Origin: Utricularia gibba
Taxonomy: Eukaryota; Streptophyta; Magnoliopsida; Lamiales; Lentibulariaceae
Length of the DNA: 64,000 nucleotides
Direction of reading: 5' to 3'
Assembly: GCA_002189035.1 (NCBI GenBank)
Contig: CM007992.1
Location: 806,001 to 870,000, forward strand
The notes under the pieces were generated by a model, which was not told the origin of the DNA, searched no databases, and saw only the letters and a list, made by a program, of their open reading frames with translations. Made by a program: the position numbers and the translations under genes. Below, piece by piece: positions 1,790 through 60,674 of this stretch (positions are counted from its first letter, which is position 1; each line of letters opens with the position of its first letter).

Positions 1790-2709
1790 GATGATTGTGA
1801 GCAGCAATTTTTTGCAGGAAACTAAACGTAGGATATAGATGGAAGATGAGAGGTGTGGAAATGAAAAAGAAGTCAATTTAAATAAGAAGGAATTGAGACA
1901 TTATTTAATATTCAACTAACTAAATGCTTTTGAATTAGTCATGGGCATGCTACGGCCATTCATTTTCAACAGTTTAATTAAATTAAAATGAAACAATAAT
2001 TTTATATTTAACCACCCATGTGATCTCTTCAAATAATTCATATGGTATAACATTTATAAAAAATAGTTTTGTATAATTGTTAATTACATTTATTAAATAA
2101 AAATAATATATTAAAGATGTATTTTGTAAACTAAATATACAAAAGTATGTATTTTGCAAACTAAAACCAAAAGGATGTATTTTGCAAACTAAAATACTGA
2201 AGTGATGTATTTTACCAATTTTTTCCCATGTTGGGGTCATTTTGGTAGGTGGCATCTCCTCTCCTACCCACCCTATGGTGGACTTGTCCTACACCTACAT
2301 CTCTTTCTTTCTTTCTCTTCATGAGCCATCTTTGTGTTTCCCCTTTTTCAAAGTTGTATAAATTATGAAAAACACATTTATAGAACAAACATGAAAAAGC
2401 AAATCAAACATGATCTTAAAATATTCTGCGTTTCATAGTAGGTCCAACAAATGGTTTTTAGAATATGCTCCTCACACCGCGCTAAACATTTACAAGTGAA
2501 GTGTCTCTTTGGCTGGGGTTACCATTGCAATCTTCTCTTCACTTTGTTTAGTGAATGCATATGCTAAGCAGTGTCACATGCTAATTACAGCAGTGTAAAG
2601 TTTTTGTCCGCATTTTCTGGTATGATACTCAGAGCAACCAATTTACTTCACGACCGAGCAATTCATTGGTACAAAATTTTAGTTTTATGGTGCCTCCACC
2701 GACAACCAA
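1790..2709. other. Spacer between MULE and G-patch genes
   Basis: AT-rich spacer. Apart from the short tandem repeat at 2116-2220 I see no gene. The part beyond about 2250 is less AT-rich and may include the 3' UTR of the G-patch gene. Confidence 0.5.
2116..2220. repeat. Four-copy tandem repeat, 28-30 bp unit
   Basis: The motif TGTATTTTGCAAACTAAAA recurs at about 2118, 2148, 2176 and 2206 with few changes (GTAAACT in copy 1, a truncated copy 4). It lies about 330 bp upstream of the MULE start codon and could be a subterminal repeat of that element. No clear terminal inverted repeat was found nearby. Confidence 0.75.
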
Positions 2710-5023
2710 TCAAGAATAATAGAGAGAGCGTATTCGTCTTACACTAGAGATGTGTACTGGATGGACTGGGCCATTCAGTTTCTTCTCAGCAGCTTGATTT
2801 TCTTCCCTTGACAGAAAACCTATCGCTCTTTTCAAGCTGCACAGAGTAGCAGCACAAGTATTAGGCCCAAGGAGTGGACAAAAACAAACAGTGACGCCAT
2901 TGGTAGATATAACCTTCTGCTTTAGAAATATGATGGCCTCAGCGGGGGGTATGTGGTCAGTGTCGAAGGGGAGTGTTCGTTGATTAGATCCTTGAGCTGC
3001 TCCAGCTTTAATGACTCACCAGGTACCTACACAGTGGAGAGCATGAGGCCGAAATGTGGGGAAAGAATAGCTAAGCTAGGGGTAATGAGGAGAAACAGAC
3101 CTGCTGAAGAAGCTGTCTGCATAGCTTCTTAAGACCAGGCTTCGCAGCAGCAACTTTTACCACATCCAAAGTGCCTTCACGTTTCCTCTTCACTGAGGAA
3201 CATGAATCTGATGAATCCGAGGTGCCATGATCAACAGCATCATCATCATCATCACTGAATGTGGTCTTTTTGCCTTGAAAGTAGCAGCCTGCAACTTTTT
3301 TTGTTCGATCTTTGATTCCAAGCCCCTGCTTTCCAGAAGTCGCCTTGTCCTGAAAAGAACAACAGTCCCTACAGCTCTCACTTGGGCACAAGATGGGAAG
3401 AGAGAATAGAATAATAGTGTACGCTTCTGATTCCTCTAAATTCATGCATGATAACTCTATTCCAAGGAAATACAAATACTAGCCGTACTTGCACGCTATT
3501 GTAAAGATTCTCCTGATCATCCTCATTGAACATGGTCCTTTCATTTGGCTTTGATGCAACCTCAGAAAGGTGAAGTTTCTTTCTTTTGGATTCAGCACCA
3601 AGCAAGCCACCGGTGACAAACCCAAACTTGTGACCCCACCAATCAGGTGGAACATCCTGCACCTTTTCGATGTCTACAACATATAGAGTAATCCAGTCAA
3701 AAATTTTACATACAATACAAGCAGTGTACTGAATAAACACTTATTTAAGCTCAAATATATCTAGCATCAACTAACATTTATTTTGACGATGCAACAACAT
3801 AACATTACCTATTCCAGGACGATTTTCAGTTTTTACACCTTCGACTTCAAGACCAATATGGACCCGATCGGGTTCATTTTCTTCCCTAATACAATTGGGA
3901 GGCTTAGTCCTGTTTACCTAAAATCATCGAATGAGGCTGTCATATAAACAGTATCAAAGGAAGGAGAATCAAGAAAGAGATAAATAAATCCATACAAGAA
4001 TTCCTTCAAGATCCTGTGAAGAGTACCCACGCACAAGCTTCCTTTCTCCCTCTTCTTATACCTATTTGTACACTATCAGCACTCATGCTAAAGTATTCGA
4101 TAAATAAGTTCATTGAAAAACATTCATATAGGGAAACAGCACACGTTCTAGACCACTAACCTTCCTTGAGGCCGAGTGACCTTTGGACCCGACTCTTCAC
4201 AATCCCCAGTTGACATCGGTTTAGTGAGTTCGATATTTTCATCTACAGTTTACACATGCAAAATTAAACCTAAAATCCTTAAAAAAAGTTTTTAAGAATA
4301 ATTCCCACCATGATGCTAATAAGGTTTACCTGAATCCACATTAGCAGCAACAGCATGCTGCTAAACAATCCCATTAAAATACCAATTAGAGGCAGAATAT
4401 ACAAAAGAAATGACCATAATGCAAATGAAGAATGAGATGAGACCGGTTTACCACTTGTAACTTCTTGAGAATGCTATCAAATTGGGACGTATCGAAAGCC
4501 CATTCATTAGGCTTTTCTGTTCCTACACCTGCATTCAAGATAAAAATGAATGGTAAAGCCATAAAATCCACTAAGAAAGTTAGGATCATAGAACGTAACC
4601 GCTAAAATGGAACAATGGGAAAGAGGGGAACGAAATAGCTGACCTAGCGTGTCCTGTTTGTTCTTCACCCTCACATACCCCTTAATTCCTTGCTTTTCTT
4701 TTCCAAGCCCTTCTCCTTCTTCCCACCCCTGATCACATTCGGAAGCTCTTATTATCAACAAATAAAAGGTCGTATATTTTGACACAAAGCACATACACCA
4801 CATCAGTTACACCGATCCACAAGCACAGCACTAAAGGCCTAAAATCACCTCACCCTCAACCTTCCATAGACTTCCTATATACAACACGCATGATTGCTCT
4901 AATTCACAAAAGAACCATATCGCGAGGCGTTTCATGCATGATTACCATTTGTTTCATGAGGCGGAAGGCGGCGGAATTCCTGTCAACTCCGACGTAGCGC
5001 ATCGGAGCTTCTGGCGCCGCCAT
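2710..5023 (-). CDS. G-patch (D111) domain protein, PINX1/GPATCH4-like, with frame breaks
   Basis: Ten exons: 4946-5023, 4644-4728, 4452-4528, 4330-4360, 4161-4242, 3996-4061, 3809-3917, 3489-3673, 3101-3349, then from 3026 down. The N-terminus ([15 protein letters not shown]) leads into a complete G-patch with [14 protein letters not shown] and the conserved [17 protein letters not shown] segment. Later parts include the [18 protein letters not shown] block and a charged nuclear C-terminus with an Asp run coded by GAT repeats. G-patch proteins bind RNA and activate DEAH helicases in ribosome biogenesis or splicing. Two frame problems are visible. In exon 6 (around 4037-4047) RYKKREKG and [15 protein letters not shown] lie in different frames and need one added base. 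In the last exon a C6 run (2944-2949 on the plus strand) separates TLTTYPP from [10 protein letters not shown]. As written, the last exon stops at 2932; with both bases added all phases fit and a 426-residue protein ends at 2710. The first break is convincing, the second less so. Confidence 0.8.
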
Positions 5024-8835: not shown

Positions 8836-9456
8836 GGAAGAAGAACGGGCTCGTCTTCTTATCTGAACCCTGTGAATTCTCCCTCTTCTCAATTCCCAAA
8901 TATGAAAATAATAAAAGAAAATTCATTTAAAAATCTCATTTGACTTTATATTAATATCAATTTTTTTTAAAAAAAACACCATTAAAATGCAGTTTAACCG
9001 TGATTTAATCGTTTTAAATCATAGTTAATTTTTTTTTAAAAAAAAGAATACAAGCACATTAGAACTTATAGTCAAGTTCTATTTGTGATCAATTCAGATC
9101 AAAGTTATTTTCACATTAATTTTACATTAATCATTTTTATTAAAAAAATAAACATAAAATTATAAAAATTAAATATTTAAAACGGAAAATTGATTAAATA
9201 TTTGTTATAATAATGTAACAAATAGATTTTATTTGAATTTTCTGAAAAATAAGTACATCTAGAATGAAATTATTCCATTTAAATTAATTGGAATCATATT
9301 TTCCGCGCACGTGTGAATGGGTATCCTTGTGGCTCTAATCGGGAATAAAGAATGTTTTTCGAGGGTATTTTCGTCATTCAGTAGGTCCACCTTGTCCATA
9401 ACTTCCGCGTCTTCTCCGCCTCCTCCGTTCTGTTGTGTAAAGCTATACGCAAAGAA
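8836..9456. other. Divergent intergenic region, MutS2 / RING-H2
   Basis: Shared upstream region of two divergent genes. The MutS2-proximal part holds its 5' UTR. The middle (8930-9290) is very AT-rich with long T and A tracts. The RING-proximal end carries a G-box. No coding sequence seen. Confidence 0.55.
9308..9313. promoter_or_regulatory. G-box CACGTG upstream of RING-H2 gene
   Basis: Palindromic CACGTG in the context GCACGTGT, 144 bp upstream of the RING-H2 start codon. This is the core of G-box/ABRE elements bound by bZIP, bHLH and BZR-type factors. Function is inferred from position and motif only. Confidence 0.4.
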
Positions 9457-9938
9457 ATGGGAATTCCGGTGACTTTCTTCGACTTCCTCCTCCCAAAATC
9501 GTTCCTCTTTGTCTTCACTCTTCTAGATTTCATCAGGAACTTAGTATCCGACGCGTTTCTTACTCGGGAGACGCCGCCGTCTGCTCCTCCAGAGCCGAAG
9601 TCAGCGACGGCATCGTTGATACGCGAACTGAATCTTTTCCCGGTGGTGAGGTTCTCAGAGGTGGAAGTGGAGGGAGACGAGAGATGCGCGGTGTGTCTTT
9701 CCGAGTTCGAAGTGGGGAGGAGATCCGACGGCTGAGGAACTGTCAGCACACCTTCCATCGGGGATGCGTTGACCGCTGGATGGACCAGGACAAGAAGACT
9801 TGCCCGCTTTGCCGGAAAAACGTCATCCCGGAGGACATGGCGGAGGCTTTCCACCACCGGCTGTGGGCCAAACTGAGCGCCATGGATGAGCCGGAATCCG
9901 ACTACTTGTCCGTGGCACAAAGCGGCGGCTTCTTCTAG
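9457..9938 (+). CDS. Membrane-anchored RING-H2 E3 ligase, BRH1-like, one frame break
   Basis: Intronless gene. The N-terminus (MGIPVTFFDFLLPKSFLFVFTL) has one hydrophobic anchor, then a Pro/Ser linker, then a RING-H2 finger. The finger starts with CAVCLSEFEVG in the first frame and continues with NCQHTFHRGC and TCPLC in a second frame. The change occurs at the GGGG run at 9714-9717, where one extra G restores GEEIRRLRNCQH and gives a 160-residue protein. That length and layout match the brassinosteroid-responsive RING protein (BRH1/XERICO-type) family. These are ER or plasma-membrane ubiquitin ligases that act with an E2 enzyme. All eight zinc ligands are present once the frame is restored. 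I infer an assembly indel; a true null allele is the alternative. Confidence 0.85.
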
Positions 9939-11577
9939 TTCCAAAAAAATAAAAAAAAATGCAACTTGCTACCTTAGCAACGCCTATATCTTTCTGATTG
10001 TTGGATCAAACGGAGCACAGTGGACGCCTAGTAATAATCATGACAAGACTTGTCCTTGGACTCAAAACGCTCATTCGCATCACCCACACAACACAAACAA
10101 ACAAACCCGAAAGCGATCCCGGGAGCTCTCCCTTCGCTTTCACCTCCTCAGAGGATGTTTCTCCGTAGCAGAAACAGGAGTTCAGATGTAAATTCCACAT
10201 CCTTTTACCCCATTTTTTAATCCCAGATGGGCTAAGAAGTATACTATTCTCCCTCTATGCACAGAATCACGGAGCACTGGATTCATTACAACTCCAACAA
10301 ATTTGCTGTATAATTTCTCAACACAGAATTGGTCCGATTTGGAGGACTATCACATCAGTCATGCATCACCCCCAAAACGAAGAACTTTGCGCCCAACACG
10401 CAATCTCACAAACAAGCGGTAGCGAGGTTTCAACAGATGAAGCTGCGGCAGAATCACGAAAACGGATGAAGCTGCAACCCCATCGCGGCGGCCGGAGCAA
10501 GGGCCAGGGCTTGGCCGGCGGAGGCGCTCCGTGGGCGCGGGGACAGTGATGAACGGCCACATTTTGGTCCGAAGAGGGGAGCATGGTCCCAGTTCCAGAT
10601 GCTGTCTTGCCCACACAGGCTGCGCCCCCCAACTGATTGATTGCTTCAGATCAATCCAGTCGCGTGATGACAAATAAAACAAACCTAAAAGTGAATTATT
10701 TTATAATAACTTTTGTTTGATACCTAAAAGTAGTAAAAGTATGAAATCTTGCTATTTAAATATGACTTCTTAAAAACTAAATAAAACAACTATTTGTTGT
10801 GTTTGAAAAAATCACGATAAAATTACAATTAAATCGTTTAGAAATACAAATAATTTCTAATAAGAATTAATTTAAATTCATCAAAAAATAATAATAAAAA
10901 ATTACAATTTCATCATAATTTAATCATGATTTAATATTTTATATAACCAAATCATCACAATTTTTTTAAAAAAACAATTCAATCACAATTGTTATAATTA
11001 TAAACGATACATGTAGACTTTTTACAATTTTTTTTTAAAAAAAATGAACAATTCAATCACAATTTTAATATCATACCATCATTCTAATTATAAACCACAC
11101 AATGCAGACTTTTTACAATTTTTTAATCATATAAAACATTGATTATATATCTCATTATCAAACAGGGTTGTTTAGAGAATAATCATTAATTCATTTTTTA
11201 ATAACCAGAAAATGACGTTATCGCAGTTGTTTCAAGCGTGTAGAATGCATGCATGCATTCTCATCTGAATAAACCACCTTACACGACGGAGAAGACGACT
11301 GTGAGATTCAGGTGAAGGATTAATGGTAATATGCAACGGGGTGAATGGGGAGGGGATTACATGCACGGTTAGAGTTTCCTCTGAGGCTCTACACTGACCT
11401 ACAAGCACACCAGCAGCAGCAGTTGCAGCTAGAGTTAAGCCCCCATCACCATCATCATCATCATCAGAGGAGGAGGAGGAGGAAGAAGAAGAAACCAGAG
11501 CACATTACCTACTAAGCTCTAGATACATACACAATGATTCATATATACTACAAATCTCTTGAACATGGATACCCATT
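9939..11577. other. Spacer between RING-H2 and AFR-like genes
   Basis: The first 250 bp are likely the RING-H2 3' UTR. A GC-rich stretch lies at about 10330-10680 and is open on the minus strand for about 100 codons, but resembles no family I know. From 10690 to 11250 the sequence is AT-rich, with an imperfect 91-bp-spaced duplication around GACTTTTTACAATTTTT (11016 and 11107). CAT and GAG trinucleotide runs at about 11447-11495 fall in the probable 3' UTR of the AFR-like gene. Confidence 0.45.
11447..11500. repeat. Compound trinucleotide microsatellite
   Basis: Adjacent runs of CAT, GAG and GAA units lie just downstream of the stop codon of the AFR-like gene, probably in its 3' UTR. Such a run is likely to vary in length between individuals. 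Confidence 0.7.
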
Positions 11578-12649
11578 TCAGATCTCCGCATTGCCAATTG
11601 GTCTCAGCTTCTTCGCTGCCCGGATGAACTCTGTGATCACTTGCACCTCGTCGACTTTCTGCAGAGGGGAAAGCAAGGTTAAAAAGGGTGCTTAAATTGA
11701 ATGGTCTTAAGGAGGAGTAGAAGGCGCGTTACCTGGGATAAGAAGTGCTGCTGCACAGCACTGATGAGTTGCTCCTTGGAGGGGCTCGGGTAAGCGCTTT
11801 CCTGGTAATTGAAGCCGGGAAGTAATGTTATCGCGTGGGAGAAAGAAAAGGAGTAGTCTAACAGATGAATGATGCGTACAAGATGGAAGGCTCGCCAGTA
11901 TCTCCACAGGGATCCGGGTCCAAGCTTTTCCAAATTGACTCTCTGTTTTCAAGGAATGCCGAGGTTAAATGTGTTACGATGAGGTCTTCCTAAGAGCACG
12001 ATCGGACTTACCGGCCGGGAAGCTTCACATTTGGACTCAACTTCTCTGCAGCTACGGTTCACTGACTTTGTTGTGGTTGAAGATGGGAACCATGGCCTGG
12101 AATACCTTACCCTTGGCTTGCTTATTTTGCCGGAGTGAAAGTTTGAAGCTGTTTTCAATCAGACTACTGGTTAGTTTGACCTGAAAATGGGGAAAAAAAG
12201 TCAATTTTCAGAAGAAACTCACGAATGGGACGACGATCCTTGGCACCGTTATCAGAACCACTAGTGGAATCATCAAGATCGTAGTCATCATCTTCCTCAT
12301 TCCCAGTAGGGGGCTCAAGTACACTCAAAGCATTTCTTTGTAGCTTCACTTCAACTCCATTCTTCAATACCTGTGATCACATTACAGAGCAGTTTCAGTT
12401 CCCCTGTTTCGCTTCCCGAGGTTAAGAAACAAGCAGCAAAGATAGAAGAACTGGTACCAGCCAGTGCCAGCCCCCGAGCCCAACAGCTTTCTTGACAACT
12501 CCCTGTAATCCTACCAGCACACTCTTGGTTCTGTTGTTTCCCTTTACAATAACCTTTGTATGCCTTGGAAGAACAGACAATTCCTCATCCCCACTTTCCT
12601 CTCGAAACGGAGACAAAATCCTTGAAGGGTATGTTTCAGTATCCAGCAT
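11578..12649 (-). CDS. SAP30/AFR-like subunit of Sin3 histone deacetylase complex
   Basis: Six exons (12458-12649, 12223-12370, 12012-12148, 11880-11942, 11733-11801, 11578-11658) join in frame to 229 residues, close to the size of Arabidopsis AFR1/AFR2 (SAP30 FUNCTION-RELATED). The start MLDTETYPSR is followed by the family's conserved VLPRHTKVIVKGNNRTKSV and GLGGWHWLVLKNGVEVKLQ blocks. The Sin3-binding C-terminus has LWRYWRAF, PSPSKEQLISAVQQHF and DEVQVITEFIRAAKKL. The family tethers histone deacetylases to chromatin; AFR1/AFR2 repress FT and delay flowering. That specific role is inferred here from homology. Exon 3 uses the acceptor inside GAAAACAG; an earlier AG would introduce a stop. 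A long GA-rich upstream region suggests a 5' UTR intron. Confidence 0.9.
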
Positions 12650-13934
12650 CTTTGCCAATAAGGGGGCCTTCAATTGTACTTCTCCTTGGCAAGTTGCATC
12701 AAACAACTCAATGGGAAATCATCCCCTGGTCTTGAACTCCACACTTAAAAACTCTTCTTTTTGTCTTGCTACCGTAGAGTGGACAGCCTCACAATCTTCA
12801 CAGAATATGCGACTCCAAGCTCAGAATCGGAATCCTGATACAAAGGCGCGAGCTTCAAGAGAATCCAAAGAAACAAGCTACAATATTATGATGCACAGAA
12901 CATAGCAGTCCGATATTGATAAGAAAATAGGTAACTGTTTATTGGCTTGACATGAATAATTTGTGGGAATTTGATTGCATTGCATTGAATTTCCTCCAAT
13001 TCACGGACAGTGTTTGATGACAATAAATGAAACAAAATAAAAATCGCACGGACCCCCCCTTCGCCCACTTCCCCCACCTTCTCTCTCAGTCCGCGCAGAA
13101 CAGAAACAGAGAGACTACATACATACATACGTGCGTACAAGAAACATCACTTTCTTCCACAAGGGTTTTTTTTCGATCCTCCAGGCAGAGAAATGCCCAA
13201 TCCAATTGCAAATCTTTGACAGGGGAAGCAGGAATAAAGCAATCAAGCAACTGGGTTTTCGGGGTTTCCCTGTTTCAGATTCTCTATGATGTCAATTTGG
13301 GGCCCAAATCAAGACATACCCAGTAAGAAAAACAAGTTGGAATCACGAAATAATGCTTGCTAAACTACAAAATCCAACTTCATCCCACAGCATCAACCGA
13401 TTCAAGGAAGTGTGAACAAGAAGAAGAAACGAATGCAGCAGGGCGGGGTGTACCTCGAAACTGGACAGAGGCGAAGAAACCAAACAGCGGTCACCCCAAT
13501 CACAAGAACCGAGAATGCAGCAGCAGCCAGGAACAACAAAAACAACACAAAACAGAAGAGAAATAAAAAGAAAAAGAAAATGGGGGTGGTTTCTTTTTCA
13601 AAATTTGAAGAGAGTGGGGGAAGTTACTGTAGATGCGTGGAAGAGAGAGAAAGCGGAAGCAGTAAATGCTGACCAACTGCCATGGAAATGGGGTGCTTGA
13701 GGCTCTGAGGGGACGAACCACCTGCCACAGCTAAATTAAAGTGATTTGTACGGCCGCTTTGTCCACTTCCTTCAAACCGGTTCAAAACAAAGCAGGAGTG
13801 GGCTTCACTTCGATCCCCGAGCCGGCGCGCCTCTCCTTTCACAATTTTGTCCTTATCCGTTTGGGGCAAACCAATAAAACAATAATATAATTAATTCCTT
13901 TAATCAAATTAACTTTATTTTGTATTCTCAAAAA
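12650..13934. other. Probable 5' UTR/promoter of AFR-like gene
   Basis: Moderate GC content, no conserved coding sequence. A purine-rich stretch at about 13400-13620 resembles a leader (CT/GA-rich on the transcribed strand) typical of plant 5' UTRs. Several short open frames here are not supported by homology. Confidence 0.45.
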
Positions 13935-14235
13935 ATATATATATCCAACATAATATTATTTTAAATACATATTTATAGGAATTATGTATCGAACATATCA
14001 TCACGTAATATCAATCTAAATATATATTAATAAGAATTATGTATCGAGTATATCATCACATACTATCATTTTAAAGACATATTTATAAGAATTATATATT
14101 AAATATATCATCATATAATATCATTTTAAAGATATATTTATAGAAATTATGTATTGAGCATATCATCACATAATATAATTTTAAATCTATATTTATATGA
14201 ATTGTATATCAAATATATCGTCACATTATAATAAG
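13935..14235. repeat. 55-bp AT-rich tandem repeat, about 5.5 copies
   Basis: A unit of exactly 55 bp repeats from about 13935. Matching ATTATGTATC-like positions fall at 13981, 14036, 14091, 14146 and 14201, each 55 bp apart, with a degenerate copy before the first. Each unit contains CATATCATCAC-like and TTTTAAA-like blocks. Copies differ at a few positions, so this is an aged minisatellite. It lies in a gene-free spacer. Confidence 0.9.
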
Positions 14236-31299: not shown

Positions 31300-32430
31300 A
31301 TGCCTAATCCCAGCCTCTTGGCTGCAACAAGCATCCCACATCAGAAAACCTACGGGGAGTTGTTTTCCCTGCAGTCTTGTCGCCGGCTGCGGCGTGCTTG
31401 CAGAATTTGTCATGTTTGGTGGGAGACATCAAGGAGCGGAGGCCTTGGCTGGACTCCCTTCTGCATAAACATGGAGCTGTTTTGTTCCATGGGTTTGATT
31501 CTGTTGCCACTGCATCAGACTTCAACGATGTTGTTGAAGCTTTTGGATATGAGGAGTTGCCTTACGTTGGCGGGGCTGCTCCGAGGAGCAAAGTTGTAGG
31601 CAGGGTATTCACAGCTAATGAGTCCCCCCCTGATCAGAAAATCCCCTTTCACCATGAAATGGCGCAGGTTTGTTTTTTGTAGCCGTTTTGGATTGACTTG
31701 CTGCGGAAAATGGACTTCAGATCCTTTACTTTTACCAGGTTCCCAACTATCCCACCAAGTTGTTTTTCTACTGTGAGGTAGAACCTGCAGAAGGTGGGGA
31801 AACTCCTATAGTTCTCAGTCATATTGTATATGAGAGAATGAAGGAAAAGTACCCTGAATTTGTTGACAAGCTGGAGAATTGTGGACTTGTATATATCCGG
31901 ATCCTCGGCGAAGAAGATGATCCTTCGTCCCCAATCGGCCGTGGCTGGAAATCAACTTTCTTGACAGAAGATAAGAGTGTAGCTGAAGAGAGGTTTGCTT
32001 TGTAGCTTACCTTATGGTCCTTGCGTATTGGTGTTGCCATTATTTGTGACCTCTTTTGACGTTCAAACAGGGCAGCCAAGCTGAAAATGAAGCTGGAGTG
32101 GACAGATGATGGGGTTAAAACCATAATGGGCCAATCCCAGCTATCAAATTTGATGAAACAAGGCAGCGCAAGATCTGGTTCAATAGCATGGTGGCTGCAT
32201 ATACAGGCTGGCTGGATAAACGGAATGATCCCACAAAAGCCGTGACTTTTGGAGACGGAAGCCTCTTACCGGAGCACATAATGCATGACTGCTTGAGAAT
32301 CATGGAAGAGGAAAGCGTTGCAATCCCCTGGAAGAAGGGGGATGTTTTGTTGGTTGATAACCTGGCTGTTCTCCACTCCAGGAAGCCATTTGTTGCTCCT
32401 CGGCGGATTTTAGCTTCACTTTGCAAGTAA
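31300..32430 (+). CDS. TauD/clavaminate-synthase-like Fe(II)/2-oxoglutarate oxygenase, two frame breaks
   Basis: Three exons (31300-31667, 31739-31992, 32071-32430). The protein closely matches the plant clavaminate synthase-like protein At3g21360. Visible blocks are DSLLHKHGAVLFHGF, YVGGAAPRSKVVGRVFTANE, IPFHHEMAQ with the HxE-type iron ligands, GGETPIVLSH, SSPIGRGWKSTF, and a distal AVLHSRK that supplies the last His. The natural substrate of this family is not known to me. Two frame breaks are present. At the GGGG run 31354-31357 one extra base joins SIPHQKTYG to VVFPAVLSP. At GGGCC 32128-32132 one extra base joins KTIMG to PIPAIKFDE. With both, the phases of all exons fit and the protein is 327 residues, the normal length. 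As written the gene would be null. Confidence 0.88.
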
Positions 32431-46749: not shown

Positions 46750-47654
46750 TTTCCTTGCTGCAAGAAACATTCGAATTGAGAAAAAAAAAAAACAGAACAA
46801 AAATAATAATAAAACAATCATCTCTAACGTCATAGTAACATGAAAATAGAGGAAGAGGACGGCCGTGTTGTATAATGTGCTCCAGTGGACCCGTTGTACT
46901 GAATGTACAAAAAAGTAGACTTAACTCTATCGCTGAAATTAGGCAAAACAGCAGTAAAACGCACACTTCACGTGTAAAGCCTCTGAATAGAGACAAGCTC
47001 AGGCCAGAAATCAAAACCAGGAACACCCTCCAGTGACGCAATTGTTCATTCAAATCCTAATATCAAGCTATTTCATGCAGAAAGTTGAATGAGACCCAGG
47101 AATGATATCCTTGCAATGCATATTCCACGAAATCGCGTTCCTTATGTCATTTATCTACATCGAAGTCAGTATTTTCAAGAAAACAAGAAAATCTCAACAG
47201 ATCAATCAGTATTGCTTCCACGGGTTGAGGAAACATTACATTACACTTTCGTCCGGCTTCTCGAAGGTCTTCAGCAAAACGCAGAACACAGCATCTGCCT
47301 CAATAACGGAATTCAAATCCGATCGATGGAGTTGAGGTTCAGGGTTACTGTCCTCTCCGCCGATAAATTCCTCCGCCCCCAACCGGCCCCAAAAACTTGA
47401 AGTTTGTGTTTTTTTTTTTTAATGTTTTTATCGTTTTTTTTAAAAAAAGGATTATCTTTCCAGAAAAAAAAAAAAAAAAACTTCCGAAGTATTCTTGAAC
47501 CGCAGCGCCAACATTCACTTACGTGTGTGGCTCTGGCTGGAGCTGAAGCTGCCCTCCAGTTCTTCCCATTATTTCAGTTGGTTGCTCCGATTCCAAGTTC
47601 CCACCGAGTTCGGCAAGCTTCCTGCTTGGGTGACGGTTTAACAACCGCCTCCTG
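46750..47654. other. Divergent intergenic region, CIA30 / NUMOD3 gene
   Basis: Shared upstream region of two divergent genes. It contains several A/T homopolymers (for example A17 near 47464 and T tracts near 47410 and 47434). No conserved coding sequence seen. Confidence 0.5.
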
Positions 47655-49883
47655 ATGCCGTTATTAGGTATTTTCGACTAAAAAATTGGATCTTCGCTGT
47701 TCGGATTAATCAGTGAGTTGGGTGTTCGTTTTCTTGCAGATATTTCAAACCCATGTTCTTGTTTCAGTCGCAGCGTATTCGGATACCGGTGGACCAGAGT
47801 CAGGTTTTCTATTCGTTATGATAATAGACTGGGTTTTTCATCTAGCGACTGTCTCGGGGTTTATTGTATGGTTAAAACTTTTACATTGGGAGGCCTGAAA
47901 GATGTCGGGGTCGGTTGATGATAAACGCCATTGGCACATATGAAAGGATGGGTGTAGCCGCAGGTGAAACTCAAATGATAAATGGGCATGAGAATCTGAT
48001 GAGAATAGGGAATGATTCAGGGAGCACAAGCACCATTGGTTCTGAGTCACCATCTTCTTGTGGAGAATCGGAAGAAATGGATGATAGGGAGAAATTGAGA
48101 CGACTGAGGATTTCAAAAGCAAATAAAGGGAATACGCCTTGGAACAAAGGCAGGAAGCATACTCCAGGTAATGTCATGCCTTGGCTTTTGGAGATTTTTC
48201 TTCCTTTGATGTTGAATGTGTTTCATTTAGCTGAATAGAAACTGAGTAGATTAATCATGTGCAGAAACTATTCAGAGGATTAAGGAGAAAACGAGACTGG
48301 CAATGCGAGATCCTAAGGTGAAGTCATGTAAGAGGCTTGGAAAGTTTTGTTATGATCTCTAAAAGAGTCTTCCTGTTTTTAATTCTTGTATGGTAGAAGT
48401 GTATGTTGTTGACGTTTTGGAGGAGAGTTGATTGTTGTTTCTGGAGCAGGTTAAGATGAAACTGGTTACTTTGGGACATGCTCAAAGGTGATCATCTATT
48501 CTTTTTCCTGGCTTTTCATATGTTCTAGCCACTCTCATGTTGATCATAAGCTCTTATTCTTCCTGGTTGTGCAGTGAAGAGACGAAGGCGAAAATTGGAG
48601 TCGGAGTTCGACTGGGGTGGGAAAGACGCAGGGAGAAATTGTTGTTGCAGGAGACTTGCCTCTATGAGTGGCAGAATCTTATTGCAGGGGCTGCACGAAA
48701 GGGTCTCCTTGGTGAGGAAGAGCTGCAATGGAATTCATTTGAGATTCAAAGTAAGCAGCTGCAGCTGGAATGGGTTGAGAGTGTTGAAAAAAGGAAAGCT
48801 ACTCCACGGCCAAAGGGCAACAAGAGAGCACCCAAATCTGCTGAGCAGAAACGCAGGATTTCAGAGGCAATAGCTGCCAAATGGGCTGATCCGGTCAGTT
48901 ATTGCTTTGTGGGAGCATCTAAGCCTCTTTTATGTGCCTTCTCCTGATACCAGTCTTTGCCTCTTGTCTCAATCAGGAATACCGTTCACGCGTCTGCTCC
49001 GGCCTCGCCAAATATCATGGGATACCTGAAGAAGCTGAAAGAAGGCCGAGGAGAAGGCCAAGTGCTGGCATCCAGGATTCTAGCAAAACTCGTACGAAGA
49101 AGGATGTGGCTGTTGTTCAGAAGAAGGAGATGCCAAGCACGGCTGTAAATATTGCTCCCAAGAGAAGAAAAGCGCCTTCTTACAGTGATCCACAAGCAAA
49201 TGACAAACTTGAGATGCTGAAAAGCATCAAAGCACAGAGAGCGGCTGCCATGAATAAAGGAAATGAAGCTGTTTCACGGGCAAGGTAAGTAAACTTCCTG
49301 CTGAAGTTGAACTGCTCACCTCCTCTGCTTGTGGGTAATAAAATTTTACTGCAGGCTACTGATAGCTGAAGCTGAGAAAGCCGCAAAGGCCCTAGAGATA
49401 GCTGCCATGAAAAGCCCTGTTGCATATTCTTCTCTGATGGAAAGCAGGAAGCTGATAGCAGAAGCGATTGAGGTCATTGAAGCATTAGAAAACGCAGAAA
49501 CGACGATATCAAATAAAGATCTTCCTCAGCCATCATACCATTCAGATGAAGGCACACCAGAATTGGAGCCCATTAAGAATGAAAAAGTGAATGGGGTAGA
49601 GAGCAAACCTTCACTCGGAAACAAGACAGAGGCGAATGATCTCAGATTAAAGAACCCCAAAGTCGACCTGGTGAATGGTAAAGCTTCAAGCTTGTGGGCG
49701 CCTGGTGAGGATCAACACCTTGGGAAGCATTGCAATGGTTTTCACAATTACTCCGTGGCGTCGGAGAGCATGAACCTATCAGTAAACGGGGTCGAAGCTC
49801 AATCAGCGTCTACGGAATCGTCGAAGAAGCTTGTCAAGAAATGGGTTCGTGGGAGGCTGGTGGAGGTTGAAGAAGAACCGTAG
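47655..49883 (+). CDS. NUMOD3-domain protein (At1g53800-like), one frame break
   Basis: Seven exons: 47655-47667, 47740-48167, 48265-48317, 48450-48487, 48575-48893, 48977-49284, 49355-49883. Exon 1 is 13 nt (MPLL plus one base). The N-terminus (MPLLDISNPCSCF) fits an organelle leader. Then comes a Ser/Thr-rich acidic linker and NUMOD3-type repeats (KANKGNTPWNKGRKH, ETIQRIKEKTRLAM, SEETKAKIGVGVRLGWERRR). A second motif (KSAEQKRRISEAIAAKWADPEYRSRV), coiled coils and an acidic tail ending VKKWVRGRLVEVEEEP follow. NUMOD3 is a DNA-binding module found in homing nucleases; no nuclease domain is visible here and the role is unknown. At GGGG 47907-47910 one extra G is needed to join LKDVG to MINAIGTYER. 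All other phases fit, giving 562 residues. Confidence 0.82.
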
Positions 49884-50475
49884 GTCATCATCGGTCCTGC
49901 CTGCATCCCTCCAGACGGCGTACTGTGTTTTGAACTTGTGCTATGAAAATTCTATCCCATATTTTAAAATCATTAGTTTGAATAAATGATTCGATTTAAT
50001 TCAAATCAAATAAAAAAATAGGTTTAATTTGTTTAAATAATCATTTAAACAAAAGTGGAATAAACTCTGGAATTAGATAAATCGAATGATATAACTATTA
50101 GAATTATATTTATAATGTTGTATCGTTATAATGATATTAGAATCAAAATCAATTAGTTTTGATAACATAAAGTATTAAATATATAAGTTCATAAATTTAA
50201 AAATAAAATGTTTTAAAAAATATAAATCAATAGATATATGACATAATTTTAAAACTTAAAAATAAAATTTTTATAATTTATATAATTTGGAGTTGTATTG
50301 AACAAACTCCACCCATTTAAAAATATCATTAATAATAGTATTTTGATATACAATGTGAAAAATTATTGTATCTAAACAGGAAGCGTATTGTTATTTTTCT
50401 TTTTCACGGTTGATCGTTTTTAACCTATTTTTAAAACCCTAAACCCCAATCAAATTTCAGTTCTGGTTGGGTAGA
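49884..50475. other. Spacer upstream of mitochondrial L7/L12 gene
   Basis: Very AT-rich from about 49960 to 50440; the right end holds the L7/L12 promoter and short 5' UTR. No gene seen. Confidence 0.5.
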
Positions 50476-50955
50476 ATGCTGTCGAGAATTCCTAAGAATG
50501 CCATCTTCTCCGGCATCCTCAGCCGGCGGCTGTTGTGCGCGGCCGTGGAAACTCGAACTCAGAAGCTGGAACGGATCGCCGATGAGCTTCTGGACCTCAA
50601 CAAGATCGAGCGCCATGATTACGTCATTCTGTTACGATACAAGATGGGGGTCAACCGCTATGGCCCCGCCGTGTCCAGTGTTCAGTCGTCGTCATCCGCG
50701 GCGAGCGGTGCGGCGTCTTCCCCTGCAGAAGTGAAGGAGAAGACGGCGTTCGATGTGAAGTTGGAGAAATTTGATGCGGCGGCGAAGCTTAAGGTGATTA
50801 AGGAGATCAGGGCTTTCACAGATTTGGGCTTGAAGGAAGCTAAGGATTTGGTGGAGAAAGCGCCTGCTGTGGTGAAGAAAGGGGTGACGAAGGAAGAGGC
50901 CGAGAAGATCTTGGAAAAGCTTAAGGAAGCTGGGGCTACTGCTGTGTTGGAATAA
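50476..50955 (+). CDS. Mitochondrial ribosomal protein L7/L12
   Basis: Single-exon gene encoding 159 residues. A basic presequence ([20 protein letters not shown]) leads into the N-terminal dimerisation segment ([20 protein letters not shown]). A Ser/Ala-rich hinge (about residues 70-90) follows, then the C-terminal L7/L12 domain ([49 protein letters not shown]). L7/L12 forms the ribosomal stalk that recruits translation GTPases; the presequence and plant homologues place it in mitochondria. The ORF could be extended upstream by three codons only, without an ATG. Confidence 0.93.
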
Positions 50956-51958
50956 TTCACCTTTCCATTTGGTAATTCTTCAATTCCTTGTAGTTGTATG
51001 AATATGAATCGAGTTGGATTGCTAATTGGTGTGGACTCCACATCGCAAATGATTTTTTTTCCTTCGGAGATGAAGATAAGTCTTCTCCTGTATTAAGGCC
51101 TCGTTTTGTTGGTTTTAAGCTTGAGTCCATTTCTGTTTGTGTATTGAAGGACGTTCATCAAAGGAATATGAGATGTGATTCAAAAGAGCAAGTTCACTGC
51201 TATCACGTTTGCAAGATTGTTTACTACTACTTACAGTCTCAGAACAGCAGTGCCATCATATCTTTCGTGATTTTGACATGTCTTGTCTGCTGCAAGACCA
51301 TGTTGCCAATTTAGGGATACTGGTAGCTGGTATTTATCAATTGTTTTCTTCTATTTTTTTAGGATGACATTTGATCATTCAAGGAAGCCAAGGAGGTTTG
51401 GCGTGGGTAGATTTAGCTCTAAATTGTTCATCTTATCATTGATTTCCTTCCGACTCTTACTTGAAATGATGGAATCTATAACACTCGAGCCAGGGCCACA
51501 ACTTGGTTGAATAATTCTAGTTGGCTTGCTGAATTTAAGTTCACATTTCCCACGTATCTCTTGTTTCTTGGTACCTTGAAAGTTGTGGACATAGTATTAC
51601 TCCAGAAAGAATTCATGCTATTCATTGTCTTATTCTAAATCATCTACGAAGTTCTTCAATCATTTTCTGCTCATGGCATCAGAGGATGAGATTAGGATAT
51701 GGAAAAGGAGTACAATACGGCTCTGAGAATGCATCTGCGTTGATGCTGGATGTTATACTTCTTTCATCTTTTTCATACTGTACATCATATACTTGAAGTT
51801 TCTTCTGAGGAGCTTTCAGCCGTCCTTTGTTCATTTGGAATGACTTGCTTACGTATTTCATATGGATTAGGTAACTGAGGAGGCACTACTACTCTTTACA
51901 AGCTTGAGAAAATCTACAGGATCATCAGCACCATCTCAAACAATATGAATTAGCCTTC
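50956..51958. other. Spacer between L7/L12 and PEPR-like kinase (tail to tail)
   Basis: About 1 kb separating two convergent genes. The first part is the L7/L12 3' UTR. No conserved protein or structured RNA is visible. Confidence 0.5.
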
Positions 51959-54900
51959 CTAGATCATGTTTGTTGTTTCGTTCGAATCCAGCAGGAGATG
52001 TTTCCTTCGACTTGTTGAGTCGATCCGCAGGAGTTTGTTGGTGACTTCTCTCATGTTTGGTCTTACATTGGGGTCAGCCGCTGTGCAGCTCAAAGCTATA
52101 GAGAGCACACCTTGTATTTCATCTATGATGTTGGAATCAATACATTCATCCCCTATTTCGGGATCCACCACCACCTCAGAGCCTGAAGACAGAGAGGTGT
52201 TTACCCACTGCACAATGCCCATTTCTTCACCAAAGGATGAATCCAGTGCTCTCCTTCCAGTAACAAGTTCCAGCAACACAACTCCATAAGCATACACATC
52301 AGACTCCTTGCTGCTTCTGGCGCAGAAGGCATTTTCTGTTGATTCACAGTCAGGATCAGAAGACAAAAGGCTGAAAATGGAACAAAACAGATCATGAAAC
52401 CATACCTGGAGCTATGTAACCTAAAGTGCCTTGAACCACAGAAGATGCACCCCTGTCATCCAGCATCTTGGCAATGCCAAAATCTGTGATATGCGGCTCG
52501 AATTCAGAATCCAGTAGAATGTTCATTGGCTTGATATCTTTGTGGATGATTGGAGGATTACAGTCAAAATGCAGATAGGATAAGCCCTGTGATGTCCCCA
52601 GTGCTATCTTGAAACGGATCCTCCAACCAATACCTGTTGGATGTTTCTCATGCAGAGCCTTGTCAAGGCTCCCATTTGCCATGTAACTGTACAGAAGTAA
52701 ACCATATTCCTTCCTCAGCCAAAAGGCCTCTAATCTAACCAGATTACGGTGCCTCACATTCCCAATTGTTTGTACTTCTGTACAGAAACTATTGTGTCCC
52801 CCTTTGCATCCACCAAAACTAACCTTTTTCAAGGCATAAACTTGGCCTTGATCCATTGACACCTTATAGACAACCCCATGTGCTCCTCTCCCGATTATGT
52901 GACCATCACTTAAGTATTCAGTAGCTTCCATAACTTGGTTCAGCAGGGAAGAATCACCTTCCTCGACTGCGGCGAGATGCAACTCCTTATCCATATTTTT
53001 CCGCAGAGCTACAAATGAGAATCCAAGGATCAAAACTGCAGCAAACACGAAAGACCCAGAAACTATCATTGCAATATCAGCCTGCCTGAGGCCTCCTCCA
53101 GTTGGAGAATCACAGTGCTTGAATGCCTTGTAGCCATTACAGTTCATGCTACCTACAGGATGGCATTGGACACACAGACCTGGATTGCCAATGAATGATA
53201 ATGGAGAGAAGGCCTTCATTAGTGAAGATGGAACAGGGCCGACAAAACTATTGCTTGAAAGGTTAACCTGAACCAAGGAATGGAGTTCACTGAGCACTTC
53301 GATACTGCCTGACAGGTTGTTGCAGGATAAGCCTAACTGCTCAAGCATTCTCAAATTCCCTATTTCATTGGGAAGCTTACCTGTAAATCTGTTTGCATCA
53401 AGCTGGATAGATACAAGCTTTTCGAATTGAAACAGAAATCTGGGAATGTCACCAAGCAGGGAATTTTCACTGATATCTAAACTAGATAATTCCTTCAAGC
53501 TTCCCCAGCTGGATGGAATTGTACCATTCAAGAGATTGCGACTCAAATCGAGTTTTGACAACTTGTAACAGTTTGATAAATTTGAAGGTAACACACCCTC
53601 CAGCTTATTATTAGACAGGTTCAGGCTCTCAAGGTTCACCAGGTTTCCAATCTCATGAGTTATATCACCAGTAAACATGTTCATTGATAAGTCTACAGAG
53701 GAAATGTATTTGAGATTACCTAAGCTGGCGGGAATGGACCCTGTCAAGCTGTTGTTGCTGAGGTCCATGTACAGAAGTTTCGAGTTCCTTACAAACTCCG
53801 GAAGCATACCTATGTGGTTATTCCCTTTAAGTATTAGCCTCGTCAAAGTGGAGCAACTGCCAATGTCAGGAGGTATGCTTCCTTCAAACTCATTTTGAGC
53901 CAATAAAAGCTTCCTCAACTGCTTCTGAAAGCAAAGATTTGGAGGTATAGGGCCTCTGAAACTGTTTCTTGTGAGATCAATTTGGGTTAGGCTGGTGTTT
54001 ATACCCAAGCCTTGAGGTATGACTCCAGTGAAATGATTGTCGAATAGCGAAATGTTTCGTAGCTGCGTCAACTGTATGATCTCCTCTGGTATCTCACCAA
54101 CCAGATTATTCTGATAAACTAGAAGATGCTGCAGGCTTTGAATCTTCCATATGCCAATTGGGATTTCTCCACTCAAATTGTTTTTAAACAGCATGAGTAT
54201 TTGCAGTTGAGAAAGCATACCAAGTTCACTTGGGATCACACCTCCAACTGGTTATCATACATCTGCAAATCTGTCATTGCCTTGCAATTTCCCAGTTCAG
54301 GAGGAATCGAACCAGAAAATTGATTCTCAGGAAGATACAAGAGTTTTAGCTGAGTTAGTTGCCCCAGAGAAGAGGGTAAGTGTCCATTTAAGCAGCAATT
54401 GACTGCCGCAAGGGTGTTTAAGCTACTGCAGTTGCCCAATCCAGGAGGTAATCCTCCATTAAAATGATTATTGGATAAAACTAGAATCTGCAGTTGCTTG
54501 CAGCTTCCAGCACCGAATTGAATCCTTCCCTCGAGATTGTTATCATTCACGTAAAGGACAGCAAGCTCCTCAAGATTGTTCAAACTGTCAGGCAAGGTTC
54601 CATCCAACAAGTTATTATTCAGATAAAGTTCTTGCAATGCAGTGCAGTTTCCAAAGGTTGCAGGGATCCATCCAGATAACATGTTGCTGTCCAAATGGAG
54701 CACCTCCAGCGCTGTCAAGTTTCCAATTTCTGCAGGGATTGAGCCACTGAGGCTGTTGCTACTCAGGTGAAGTTCCTTCAAAGATTGAATGTTGAACAAG
54801 GAGATAGGGATCTTCCCAGTTAGAGAATTATCCCACAAGCTCAAAAACTCCAATCTTTGCAAATTCCCAAGACTTGGAGGGATTGCCCCAGAAAAGCTGT

Positions 54901-55267
54901 TCTTTGAAAGATCCAGTTCCAGAAGATGACCGCAATGCCCCAACTCAGAAGGAATGGGACCCGAGAACCTATTGAAACTGATGTCGATTGTTCGCAAGTG
55001 CCTGAGATTAGCGATTTGTGGACCAAGTTGTCCAGAGATTCCAAGGCCCGACAAGTTCAAATGAAAAACAAAGTTAAGTCTTCGACAGTGCACTCCCACC
55101 CAAGAACAGTGAGACGAAAAGGAGGCATTCCAGGTGGATCTGATGGATGGGGGGATCACATTCCAGTGGGTAAGAAGTGACATGAGAACTGTACCATCGG
55201 AGGACAAGGCAGAGGCCGTAGGAAGCAAGAAAACGGTGAAAAAGCAGACGAAACCAGCAGTTTGCAT
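51959..55267 (-). CDS. LRR receptor-like kinase, PEPR1/PEPR2-like (LRR XI), one frame break
   Basis: Signal peptide (MQTAGFVCFFTVFLLPTASA), an N-cap with CSWVGVHC, about 26 LRRs, a transmembrane helix (IAMIVSGSFVFAAVLILGFSF) and a Ser/Thr kinase. A 70-bp intron (52336-52405) sits in the kinase just after GYIAP. The kinase has IGRGAHGVVYK, the Lys of YALKK, HKDIKPMNILL and DFGIAKML. The arrangement matches Arabidopsis receptors for Pep danger peptides, but the ligand here is not proven. In the catalytic loop HRD is replaced by HKD, which still keeps the catalytic Asp. Between QMYDNQLE and VIPSELGMLSQ the frame breaks at 54239-54246; one added G gives NQLEGVIPSEL and a 1079-residue protein of normal length. 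Confidence 0.88.
52336..52405 (-). other. Short intron in PEPR-like kinase
   Basis: Donor CCAG|GTATGG and acceptor CAACAG|AAAATGCC are joined in frame to make IAPENAFCARSSKESDVYAYG. Listed because it splits the APE motif of the kinase and a single-exon model would truncate the protein. Confidence 0.85.
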
Positions 55268-57416
55268 CTCGGCTAGTTCCTTGGTAGACGAAACAGAAGC
55301 AGCAGAAGAGACCCGTGGACTAAATGAAAGAGAAGAAGAAGAGATACCCGCGGAATCAGCAGGGTGGCGAAAGCTTCTTCGAGTGTGAACGAGGTTACAC
55401 CGCCCTTCAGCCTGCGCTGGTCTTTCCGCATTGAATAGTGGTTTCTGGGAGTCAAAAGTGGTCAGCTAGTGCAGCACCCCTTTACTGCTCCATGACATCA
55501 AACTCCCCCATTTTTCCAGTGGGTTCCTTCCATACGGCTGCCGGAACAAGGTGCCCGCCCCGTTTTGGAAAAAGAACAAAACTTCAACACTCCACAATTC
55601 ACTCATCCCGAACAGTTCCATGAATCCTGCACAGCTTCGCATTTGTTCCCAAGAAACACCCCAGCCGAGGGTTTGTTGGTCTTCACTAGCGAGAGGATCG
55701 ATTTTAACACCGCCAACGTATATCTAGTTTAAAGATATACTTTACATTTTGTAGAATATATATTATAAAATTTAATATAGTAAATTATTATATAATTTAA
55801 TGTTATGATATAAATGTATTTTTACTATAGATAAAAAATAAATGGTATAATTTTTTAAATAATTTCTTATTTAATCTTTAAAATACTGATTTAATAAATT
55901 CAATAATTTCTGAAGTTAGTTACATATTCTAAATTTCCGATTTTAATTCGAAATAAATAAATATTATAATTTTTAAAAATTAAACATAATCAATTTAATA
56001 AATTATGAGAACCGTAATTAGATATTTAATTCTTATGATTTTATATTTTAAAATATCATAATAATTTAAATATATTTTAAAAGACCTCGTACAAGATTCG
56101 TTTAATTTTTTTTAGATGATTTCCTATATAAGTATCTTTTTGAATAATTTTGATTTTTCATGAGATGAGTGTGACATCTATTTTAAAAAAGGAATATAAA
56201 TTTAGGAGCGTTTATTATTAATATATCAATAAAGTACATATATTTTATTTTTATTTTATTGTAAATAATTCTCTAATAAAAAAGATAATCAAGCAATGTT
56301 GGAGAGTAGATATGAATATAGAGGAGGTGTGATGTGGATCATCATTCAGGCCGTGTTACATTAACTATTTGTGTGTTGCCACGTGTCCGTCTCCCACTTG
56401 CTTGGCCAGAAAATTTCGGACACCTATTAATTAATTAGTTAATTGCGTTTTTAGTGGAGTTTATTATAAAAGCAGAAACCATCGCCCAAATTGGATTTTT
56501 CTTTTTAAAGTAAATATTTTGATAATGTTCAGTAGATGATTATCTTATACAAATGTATAAAGTATTAAATATATTAGTTATAAGTAGTGTTTTGAAAATT
56601 TTTTGAAATTTATTTTTATTTTTTAAAATTATTTTTTTAAAAAAAGAAATAAAAAATAAAAGTAACCAACCTCTTATTTTTTCAAAAATAATTTTTATAA
56701 TTATAATTTTAAAAATATTTTTGATAGAATTACTTTTACAATTAAAAGTGTTTTAGAACAAAATTATTTTTACTTTTAAAAAATAGAAATTGGTTTTAAA
56801 AATTTTCCAGAATACTGCTATAGGTTCATGCTAATTTATCATATCAGCTTAAATATTGCATTTTTTCTAGTAGTTCTAAGCATTCAGTTGGTTTGAAGCG
56901 TTTTTTTATTTATTTGATTCAAAATAGTGAAGAATGCAACATACAATATGAAATTTATAACTCTTTTATCTTTTACTAACATTCTTTGTATAATAGGCTT
57001 TTGCCACACTCAATTTTACATGAAAATTTGAGAATATGATTAAAAGAATTATTCGAATGTTATATAAATCACGTATATATTAAAAAAAACGAATCTACCA
57101 ACTAAAGATAGTTATCAACATATACATGTTTCAAGTATATAAAAAATACTATCAAATACCATTGAAAATTAATTCTTTAAAATGTCAACACGTAGGCGTG
57201 TACCCAGAAAAGGTACCCTGTACAGTAAGTCAACGCCAGCGGTTGTAGACATCCCTGGTTCATGCCATCATTATTCATCTGCGTTCCCCTGTTCACTGGA
57301 AACAGATAGCAATCGTAGCCACTTGATAGCTGATGATCGATTTGGGTTCTTTATACCCATCTTTCGACATGTTTCTTCTTCATGATTTGTGCTGAGGAGG
57401 TTGAGGCGGAGCAGAC
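55268..57416. other. Divergent intergenic region between two receptor kinases
   Basis: About 2.1 kb, AT-rich from 55700 to 57180. It includes the promoters of both kinase genes and a G-box (CACGTG at 56380-56385). No coding sequence supported. Confidence 0.5.
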
Positions 57417-60400
57417 ATGCGCTACTCTTGTTGCTCCGGCAATAGAATCGTTTACACTCTTCAGTTCTTGCAACTGCTGCTGCTGCTGCTGCTGCTGCTC
57501 ATCTGTTCCTTCGCTGATTGCTGCAGTGAAATTGATCGGGAGTCACTTTCGCTGTTCCAGAAAGAATTCTCTGCTTCCCCAGGTTGAATTGGTCGCTTTC
57601 GCGGGATTGCTGCGGGTGGGAAGGTGTGGATTGTGATCTCTCTGGGAGAGTCATCGCTCTGCAACTCCCGAATAGAAATCTTGCTGGACCCTTTCCCCCT
57701 TCCATCACAAATATCACGACTCTGTCTCATATCAATCTTTCTGGTAATGGGCTCTCTGGGAATCTCCCAAGTCGGTTCTTTTCCTCTTTTTACAGTCTTG
57801 AAGTTCTTGATCTGAGCTCCAATAGATTGAGTGGTGAGTTGGATTCAAATGATCATCTTCCACGGAGTATTCACTTTCTTAACTTGTCCAGCAACTTCTT
57901 ATCAGGAAAAATCCCCTCCTCCTTTTTCCAAAATGCTACGAATTTGCAGGTCTTTGATGTGGATGGTAACAGGTTCTCTGGTTCTATTCCATCAGATATC
58001 TGCAGTTTTTCACCATCACTGCAGGTTCTTGATTTCTCAGACAATTATTTCTCAGGCCCAATTCCTCAGTCCCTAGGTGGGTGCACGAAGTTGCAAACTC
58101 TAAGAGCAGGATTCTGCAGTCTATCAGGAGTGATTCCATCAAGTATTTACAATCTATCGTCCCTGCAAGAACTAAACTTGGCAGGAAATAATCTCTCTGG
58201 ATCAGTTGATCCCACAGTCGTTAACTGCACAAACTTGAGAATCTTAGCTCTTCATGGTAACCATCTTACCGGCATGATTCCTCAAGATATAGGGAAGCTG
58301 CTATTGTTGGAACAACTGCTCCTCCATGTCAATCGGATCGAAGGAACTATTCCAGTGTCCCTTACCAACTGTACCAAGCTAAGCACCCTGATTCTGAGAG
58401 TCAACTTACTCAGAGGTGAGCTTGCAGCTTTGGATTTCTCCAAGTTTGTCCACCTACAAGTAATTGATCTTGGGGACAATTATTTCAGTGGTGGCTTGCC
58501 CACAAGTCTGTTCTCTTGCCAGACACTTACTGCTATTCGGCTAGCCACCAACAAATTTACCGGAGAAGTTCCCCGGAAGTTGGATCACTGCAATCTCTAT
58601 CGTTCATCTCCCTCTCCAACAACAGTCTGAGTAACATTAGGAGTGCACTGAGCATCCTCAGGGAGTGTAAAAATCTCAGTACACTCATTCTATCTAAGAA
58701 CTTCTTTGGAGAAGAGCTTCCTGGAGATGAGAATCTCATTAACCACGGGATGTTTCAAAGAATTCAAATACTCGCATTGGGAGGAAGCAGACTTACTGGT
58801 CAGATACCAAACTGGATATCTGGGCTCATCAACTTGGAGGTTGTGGACGTATCTTTCAATAACTTGACAGGGACGATACCCAGTTGGTTTGGGAATTTTG
58901 CTGACCTTTTCTACTTGGATTTTTCCCACAACCATTTCACTGGAGGTTTCCCAGTGCAACTTCTTGGCCTGAGAAGACTTGCTTACTTTCGAAGTGCGTT
59001 AGATGGCAACAGTCTGCAGTTGCCTGTGTTTATTAAGCCTAACAATGTTACCAAACTGCAATACAATCAGCTATCAAGCTTACCCTCATCGATATATATC
59101 AACTTCAACCACATCAATGGCAGCATCCCTTGGGAGATTGGATTGCTCAAGTTCATAATGGTATTGGATCTCAGTAACAACAACCTCACAGGCACCATTC
59201 CTGATTCAATATCTAATCTCACTAACCTGGAGAACCTGGACCTTTCTGTAAATGATCTGACTGGTGAGATTCCGGCATCCATAAGCGGTCTCCATTTCTT
59301 GTCTTCCTTCAATGTGGCCAGTAACCATCTCCAAGGGCCAATTCCAACAGGGGGTCAATTTGAGACATTTCCAGTCTCAAGCTTCCAAGGTAATCCACTT
59401 CTGTGTGGTTCAGTTTTGCAGAACCCTTGTGGTGGACAGGGTGTTTCTCCACCGGGCTCATCAGCACCAGATGATGCGAACAACAGAAAGAAGATCATTG
59501 CAATAACGCTAGGGGTGTGCTCGACTGTTTTCTTCCTGGCTCTTCTTCTATATTCCATCGTCTACAGGAGGAGACTCTTCCCAACAGCACATGTTGCAGA
59601 AGAGGAAATGGATGTGTCTCCAGAGTTGGCAAAAGACATGAGTCTAGTCATGGTGTTCCCGAACAATGAGAACAAAGTAGAGCCTCTCACTATAGCCGAT
59701 ATATTGAAAGCCACTGATAATTTCAACCAATCCCACATAGTAGGCTGTGGAGGCTATGGTTTGGTATACAGAGCCACTCTGGAAGATGGTACTGACCTTG
59801 CCATCAAGAAGCTGTCTGGAGAGATAGGGCTGATGGAGAGGGAATTCAGAGCAGAGGTGGAAGCTCTGTCCACAGCACAGCACAAGAACCTGGTCACATT
59901 GCGAGGCTACTGTGTGCATAATGGCTCAAGGCTGCTGATCTACTCTTACATGGAAAAAGGAAGCCTGGATTACTGGCTTCACGAGAAGCCAGATGGCGCA
60001 GCACAACTCACTTGGCCGATTCGGCTCAAGATCGCTTTAGGAGCAAGCCGTGGAATAGCTTATATCCACAACGAATGCAAACCACAGATAGTGCATCGTG
60101 ATATCAAGTCTAGCAACATTCTTCTCAACCATGACTTCGAACCACAAGTGGCTGATTTCGGGTTGGCCCGACTAATCCTCCCTTGCAAGACTCATGTGAC
60201 AACAGAGTTGGTGGGTACTCCCGGTTACATTCCACCAGAGTACAATCAATCCTTGATGTCCACTTTCAGGGGAGATGTATACAGTTTTGGAGTGGTGTTG
60301 TTAGAGCTCCTGAGTGGCAGAAGACCTATGTCAACTTTCGGACCAAAGATGCCAGGAGGACTGGTGGCAATGGTGCAGCAACTCAGAAGCGAACGAAAGG

Positions 60401-60612
60401 TAGAGGATATTTTTGATACCTTCCTCAGAGGAAAAGGTTACAGAGAAGAGATGCTTAAAGTAGCGCACATGGCAACAATGTGCGTTGAAGCGGATCCATT
60501 GAAGAGGCCAACAATCAATGCAGTAGTAGAATGGCTCGAGGATGTGGAAAGGAATCAACATAAATTACAGTACTTGGTTGGCGGGCAAAATTTGAGTCAG
60601 TCAAGTCAGTAA
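57417..60612 (+). CDS. LRR receptor-like kinase, PSY1R/PSKR-like (LRR X), two frame breaks
   Basis: Intronless. The signal peptide contains nine Leu in a row, eight of them CTG (57474-57497). After [16 protein letters not shown] the frame changes at 57582-57585 (one base missing) to continue [18 protein letters not shown]. LRRs follow, with an island domain around [19 protein letters not shown], as in tyrosine-sulfated-peptide receptors. At CCCC 58571-58574 a second missing base separates FTGEVP from [11 protein letters not shown]. The kinase is complete: [46 protein letters not shown]. With both bases added the protein is 1065 residues, normal for PSY1R or PSKR1. The sequence from [20 protein letters not shown] to the kinase resembles PSY1R most. 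These receptors promote cell expansion in response to PSY or PSK peptides; ligand identity is inferred. Confidence 0.88.
57474..57500 (+). repeat. (CTG)8 microsatellite encoding poly-Leu in signal peptide
   Basis: Eight CTG codons followed by CTC form the hydrophobic core of the signal peptide. Slippage here would change its length in steps of one Leu without breaking the frame. Confidence 0.85.
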
Positions 60613-60674
60613 AGAATAGTTGAACTCTTATTGAACGTATGAAAATAGTACCTACTCAACTCTCTCCAATCCAA

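Follow-up and report, generated by a model that had tools for sequence, protein, structure and literature searches.

The window analysed here is a 64,000-nucleotide stretch of the Utricularia gibba genome (G000:C4:806001-870000), in which several genes are printed with a reading frame that is broken by the absence of one base. The question is whether these genes are dead in the plant or whether the bases went missing when the genome was assembled. Very probably, a long-read-only assembly lost these bases at the consensus step, and that assembly is most likely the PacBio one of U. gibba; we therefore advise against treating the genes as dead.

The parent assembly comprises 100.09 Mb in 516 contigs. 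This size agrees with two papers in which the species is described as having a genome of roughly 100 Mb and a PacBio assembly (PMC8333044, PMC10663240), and a PacBio long-read-only assembly is the most likely source of the window. Four contigs of the parent assembly have lengths that are exact multiples of 500 (C1, 8,500,000; C2, 6,192,500; C505, 3,452,500; C507, 642,500), which would fit cutting at consensus-window boundaries.

Frame breaks in the window

Nine one-base breaks had been reported in the original prediction. The printed bases agree with that description at all nine places, and the frame switches are visible in a three-frame translation. Eight are real breaks in the printed sequence, each with a net loss of one base, whereas the ninth, in a NUMOD3 gene, lacks homology support (Table 1). 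Computed comparison demonstrated five of the eight (RING, TauD-like a and b, PEPR and PSY1R b). The other three (both G-patch sites and PSY1R a) come solely from frame reading and are likewise one-base losses; here plant homologues helped the reading, as a lead and not as a test.

Table 1. Frame breaks and the genes that contain them. Positions are those of the window; −1 denotes one base missing.
Feature	Position	Strand	Observation
G-patch break, near the 3′ end of the gene	2944..2949	−	−1 base; printed C6 on the coding strand; frame reading, no solved homologue compared
G-patch break, upstream exon	4037..4047	−	−1 base; mixed sequence, no long run; frame reading
RING-H2 break, within the domain; single-exon gene otherwise intact	9714..9717	+	−1 base; homeolog on C413; RING Pfam match in the 3′ frame
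TauD/TfdA-like break a, exon 1	31354..31357	+	−1 base; 3′ frame compared with At3g21360 (1y0z)
TauD/TfdA-like break b, last exon	32128..32132	+	−1 base; frames abut on 1y0z
NUMOD3 break, as claimed	47907..47910	+	Unsupported
PEPR-like receptor kinase gene	51959..55465	−	One break in about 3.2 kb of coding sequence
PEPR-like break, LRR region	54239..54246	−	−1 base; both pieces match PEPR1 (PDB 5gr8)
PSY1R-like receptor kinase gene	57480..60612	+	Two breaks
PSY1R-like break a, between signal peptide and first LRR	57582..57585	+	−1 base; printed CCCC just upstream; frame reading
PSY1R-like break b, LRR region	58571..58574	+	−1 base; printed CCCC

At TauD-like site b nothing is lost: on At3g21360 (1y0z) the 5′ frame runs up to residue 231, and residue 232 is the first of the 3′ frame. 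At site a the 3′ frame aligns to 1y0z from residue 22, and the short 5′ frame was assessed by eye. The two pieces of the PEPR-like gene correspond to residues 1-323 (positions 55465-54239) and to residue 325 onward (from position 54251) of PEPR1 (5gr8); their starts lie 1214 bases apart, which is 2 modulo 3, so that one base is missing. LRRs are present on either side of PSY1R site b and the kinase belongs to the 3′ piece; the two pieces start 932 bases apart, again 2 modulo 3. The RING gene has a homeolog on contig C413 (83% identity) with an open frame and one extra base at the site. None of the nine sites turned up a second time when the genome was searched for further assembled copies, and close relatives were recovered for the RING gene only.

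The genes said to be intact were also inspected. Both PPR frames are open, in agreement with the original prediction, and each exon of MutS2 and CCT3 looked intact, although these two genes were checked less rigorously than the PPR frames.

The NUMOD3 site stands apart. The frame 5′ of the proposed break (MVKTFTLGGLKDV) has no recognised homology, the downstream frame has an ATG of its own, and a search for a NUMOD3 paralogue across the genome found none. We put at about even the chance that there is no break at this site and that the gene model was misread, either because translation begins in the later frame or because there is an intron at the switch. The unsupported upstream frame and the ATG of the later one favour a misread model; against it, the sequence printed at the switch is GGGG, resembling other sites in the assembly. 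Misreading cannot be extended to the TauD-like, PEPR, RING and PSY1R b sites, where the frames abut within a domain and leave no room for an intron.

Two further features of the window were recorded. Between the PEPR-like and PSY1R-like genes lies a repeat of ~240 bp (positions 56582-56819) that matches itself in opposite orientation and has at least 36 copies in the genome, mostly at 83-90% identity; it looks like a MITE-type element. A DNA search using positions 45500-64000 of the window was dominated by a repeat. Relatives of both the RING and the CCT3-type genes (window 9400-22800) are found close together at C413:3826910-3829753, which suggests a syntenic block from whole-genome duplication.

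One-base losses across the genome

A frameshift-aware alignment of DNA to protein was written for this study and applied to loci of three families in this genome (GRAS, UGT and HSP70). The GRAS set contains nearly all matches found and the UGT set the 30 best-scoring matches, picked on score only. The three HSP70 loci entered the sample on account of being split; the sampling is thus not wholly even. Two loci, one on a duplicate small contig and one at a contig end (L013 and L068), were excluded from the rate, as were searches with TCP1, subtilase, GTP_EFTU and tubulin, which returned mostly short exons or coordinates only. Raw frameshift calls at L008/L009, L018/L019 and L014 were dropped as reference artefacts. 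Four first exons of the EF-Tu family, probably EF1A, were seen with equal scores and in mixed orientation in an 11-kb cluster (C1:2666923-2677598).

In 100.4 kb of GRAS, UGT and HSP70 coding sequence there were 37 one-base losses and 3 gains (sign test, p = 2e-8), the deletion bias looked for as a mark of indel error in long-read consensus. This amounts to one loss per 2.71 kb, with breaks in 27 of the 74 sampled loci. The UGT set alone had 13 losses in 37.3 kb and the HSP70 set 3 in 5 kb. For the window, 9 breaks were reported against 8.8 expected, given a coding length of ~24 kb that was estimated by hand. The window is not special: such losses are equally frequent across the genome.

The same numbers bear on the possibility that the breaks are real frameshifts, in recent pseudogenes that would fit a duplicated genome which is shrinking and losing genes. 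We regard this as very unlikely: about a third of the sampled genes would have to be freshly dead, nearly all through one-base losses. Less likely still is that the plant itself has a strong bias towards one-base deletions in coding runs, with many genes carrying fresh frameshift alleles as the genome shrinks.

Dependence on run length

Losses rise steeply with run length. A run of at least 5 was found near 11 of the 37 losses, compared with 136 of 3040 coding positions drawn at random (p = 6e-7). In the GRAS genes, one G/C-rich motif is printed with C5, C6 and C6 in three paralogues, all of them broken there; the unbroken paralogues have C runs of at most 4, and the broken ones also include two whose runs are of four. 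The breaks at this shared motif are independent.

The original prediction had placed most of the window breaks in G or C runs, which is fair but loose: five sites are in runs of at least 4 (G6, G4, G4, G4 and C4), whereas the rest are in short runs or mixed sequence. That several window sites are outside runs of at least 4 counts against an assembly error. The small contig and the contig end also show losses of 2-7 bases outside runs. Homopolymer under-calling, the cause originally proposed, is thus mostly right, with the addition that bases are also lost outside runs.

Programmed frameshifting, transcript slippage or RNA editing might be imagined to mend the frame in vivo and, like slippage sites, some of the sites are in runs. 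Nevertheless, the sites share no common motif, many of the runs are only 2-4 long, the affected families are unrelated and spread genome-wide, and the intact RING homeolog has its frame in the DNA. We therefore give this explanation practically no weight.

Loci assembled twice

Three loci are present in the assembly as duplicate pairs, totalling 11.5 kb. Together they differ by 1 substitution and 20 indels and, within each pair, the losses are all on one side. Over 4.1 kb shared by C316, a small contig of 38 kb, and C412 there is 1 substitution and 10 indels, every one of them a loss from C316; one falls inside a GRAS frame and leaves 412 aa open in C316 compared with 615 aa in C412. The end of C414 and C422 share 1.4 kb without a substitution; they differ by 7 gaps, amounting to 11 bases, and in every case the bases are absent from C414. 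C241 and C304 share 6.0 kb with no substitutions and 3 one-base differences, in runs of G4, G5 and T8. All 3 bases were lost from the interior of C304, a contig of 3.5 Mb. At the G5 difference (GGGGG printed as GGGG in C304) a gene is interrupted that is open for 286 aa in C241; we named it by eye as an AP2/ERF-like sequence.

Real alleles or duplicates are expected to diverge by substitutions first. When two copies of a single locus differ in dropped bases and nothing else, the artefact is seen directly, and this too is evidence against pseudogenes. In the 4.1-kb pair, the main contig is without losses, which counts against the assembly-error reading.

The duplicate small contigs that sit alongside main contigs could also be taken as a sign of heterozygous or clonal-variant alleles, the assembler having chosen a real haplotype with the shorter run. 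However, substitutions normally outnumber indels between haplotypes, and both the ratio of 1 substitution to 20 indels and the one-sided losses in each pair make this explanation highly improbable.

C241 and C304 also carry HSP70 loci (L062 and L063). The two sequences are identical for 2.5 kb and then part, with 16 substitutions over roughly 1 kb; recombination between tandem HSP70 copies, or a misjoin of them, would give such a picture.

Selection and disablements

Relaxed selection, sought as a sign of pseudogenes, was not seen in the sampled broken genes. Measured against the closest paralogue that is intact, dN/dS had a median of 0.209 in 18 broken genes and of 0.200 in 25 intact ones, with a p-value (p = 0.8) that is only a guide because some intact pairs were counted in both directions and some pairs dropped out, namely near-identical duplicate pairs and saturated pairs. 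The comparison describes the sampled broken genes, not those of the window, and very recent loss is invisible to it. A mixture of disablements (stops, larger indels and gains), likewise looked for as a sign of pseudogenes, was not the pattern of the sampled sets: gains were few beside losses (3 versus 37), there were no in-frame stops in the UGT set, and stops in the GRAS set were confined to two loci. The near absence of stops and the unrelaxed constraint both argue against pseudogenes.

A few sampled loci do look decayed, as recent pseudogenes would. One GRAS locus (L074) has mixed indels and a stop and looks truly decayed. The HSP70 copy on C304 (L063:1276) has a break that is common to C241, and its dN/dS is 0.55; it may be a real pseudogene or mutation. 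Therefore, not every break in the assembly is an error.

Origin of the breaks and comparison with known systems

Taken as a class, the eight supported sites are best explained by assembly error on the strength of the genome-wide rate, the loci assembled twice, the run-length effect, the unrelaxed selection and the intact RING homeolog, and on this point the original prediction holds. We infer that the supported window sites belong to the genome-wide class of losses. The consensus step would drop single bases, chiefly in G and C runs; each drop would put the printed frame out by one base, and the living plant would carry an intact gene. The finding is an ordinary one.

With about a third of the sampled loci broken, this assembly is not a safe basis for counting pseudogenes, gene losses or truncated proteins unless reads or transcripts are used as well. 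In the case of the truncated DCL3 of U. gibba, RNA-seq and 5′ RACE were used to exclude a mistake of assembly or annotation (PMC8333044).

Two known systems invite comparison. The plant pseudogenes of fractionation after whole-genome duplication are similar in that one of two RING homeologs is broken. However, the present breaks are unlike them in having almost no stops and a normal dN/dS, and in being nearly all one-base losses. The closer likeness is to the residual indel errors of long-read-only assemblies, among which errors in homopolymer length are the most common in bacterial assemblies (PMC8812927). Here too the losses are of single bases, depend on run length, come with few substitutions, split genes of conserved families, and are denser on a small contig and at a contig end. 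Some losses of 2-7 bases outside runs, on the small contig and the contig end, are the departure from this pattern, and we see no difference in kind.
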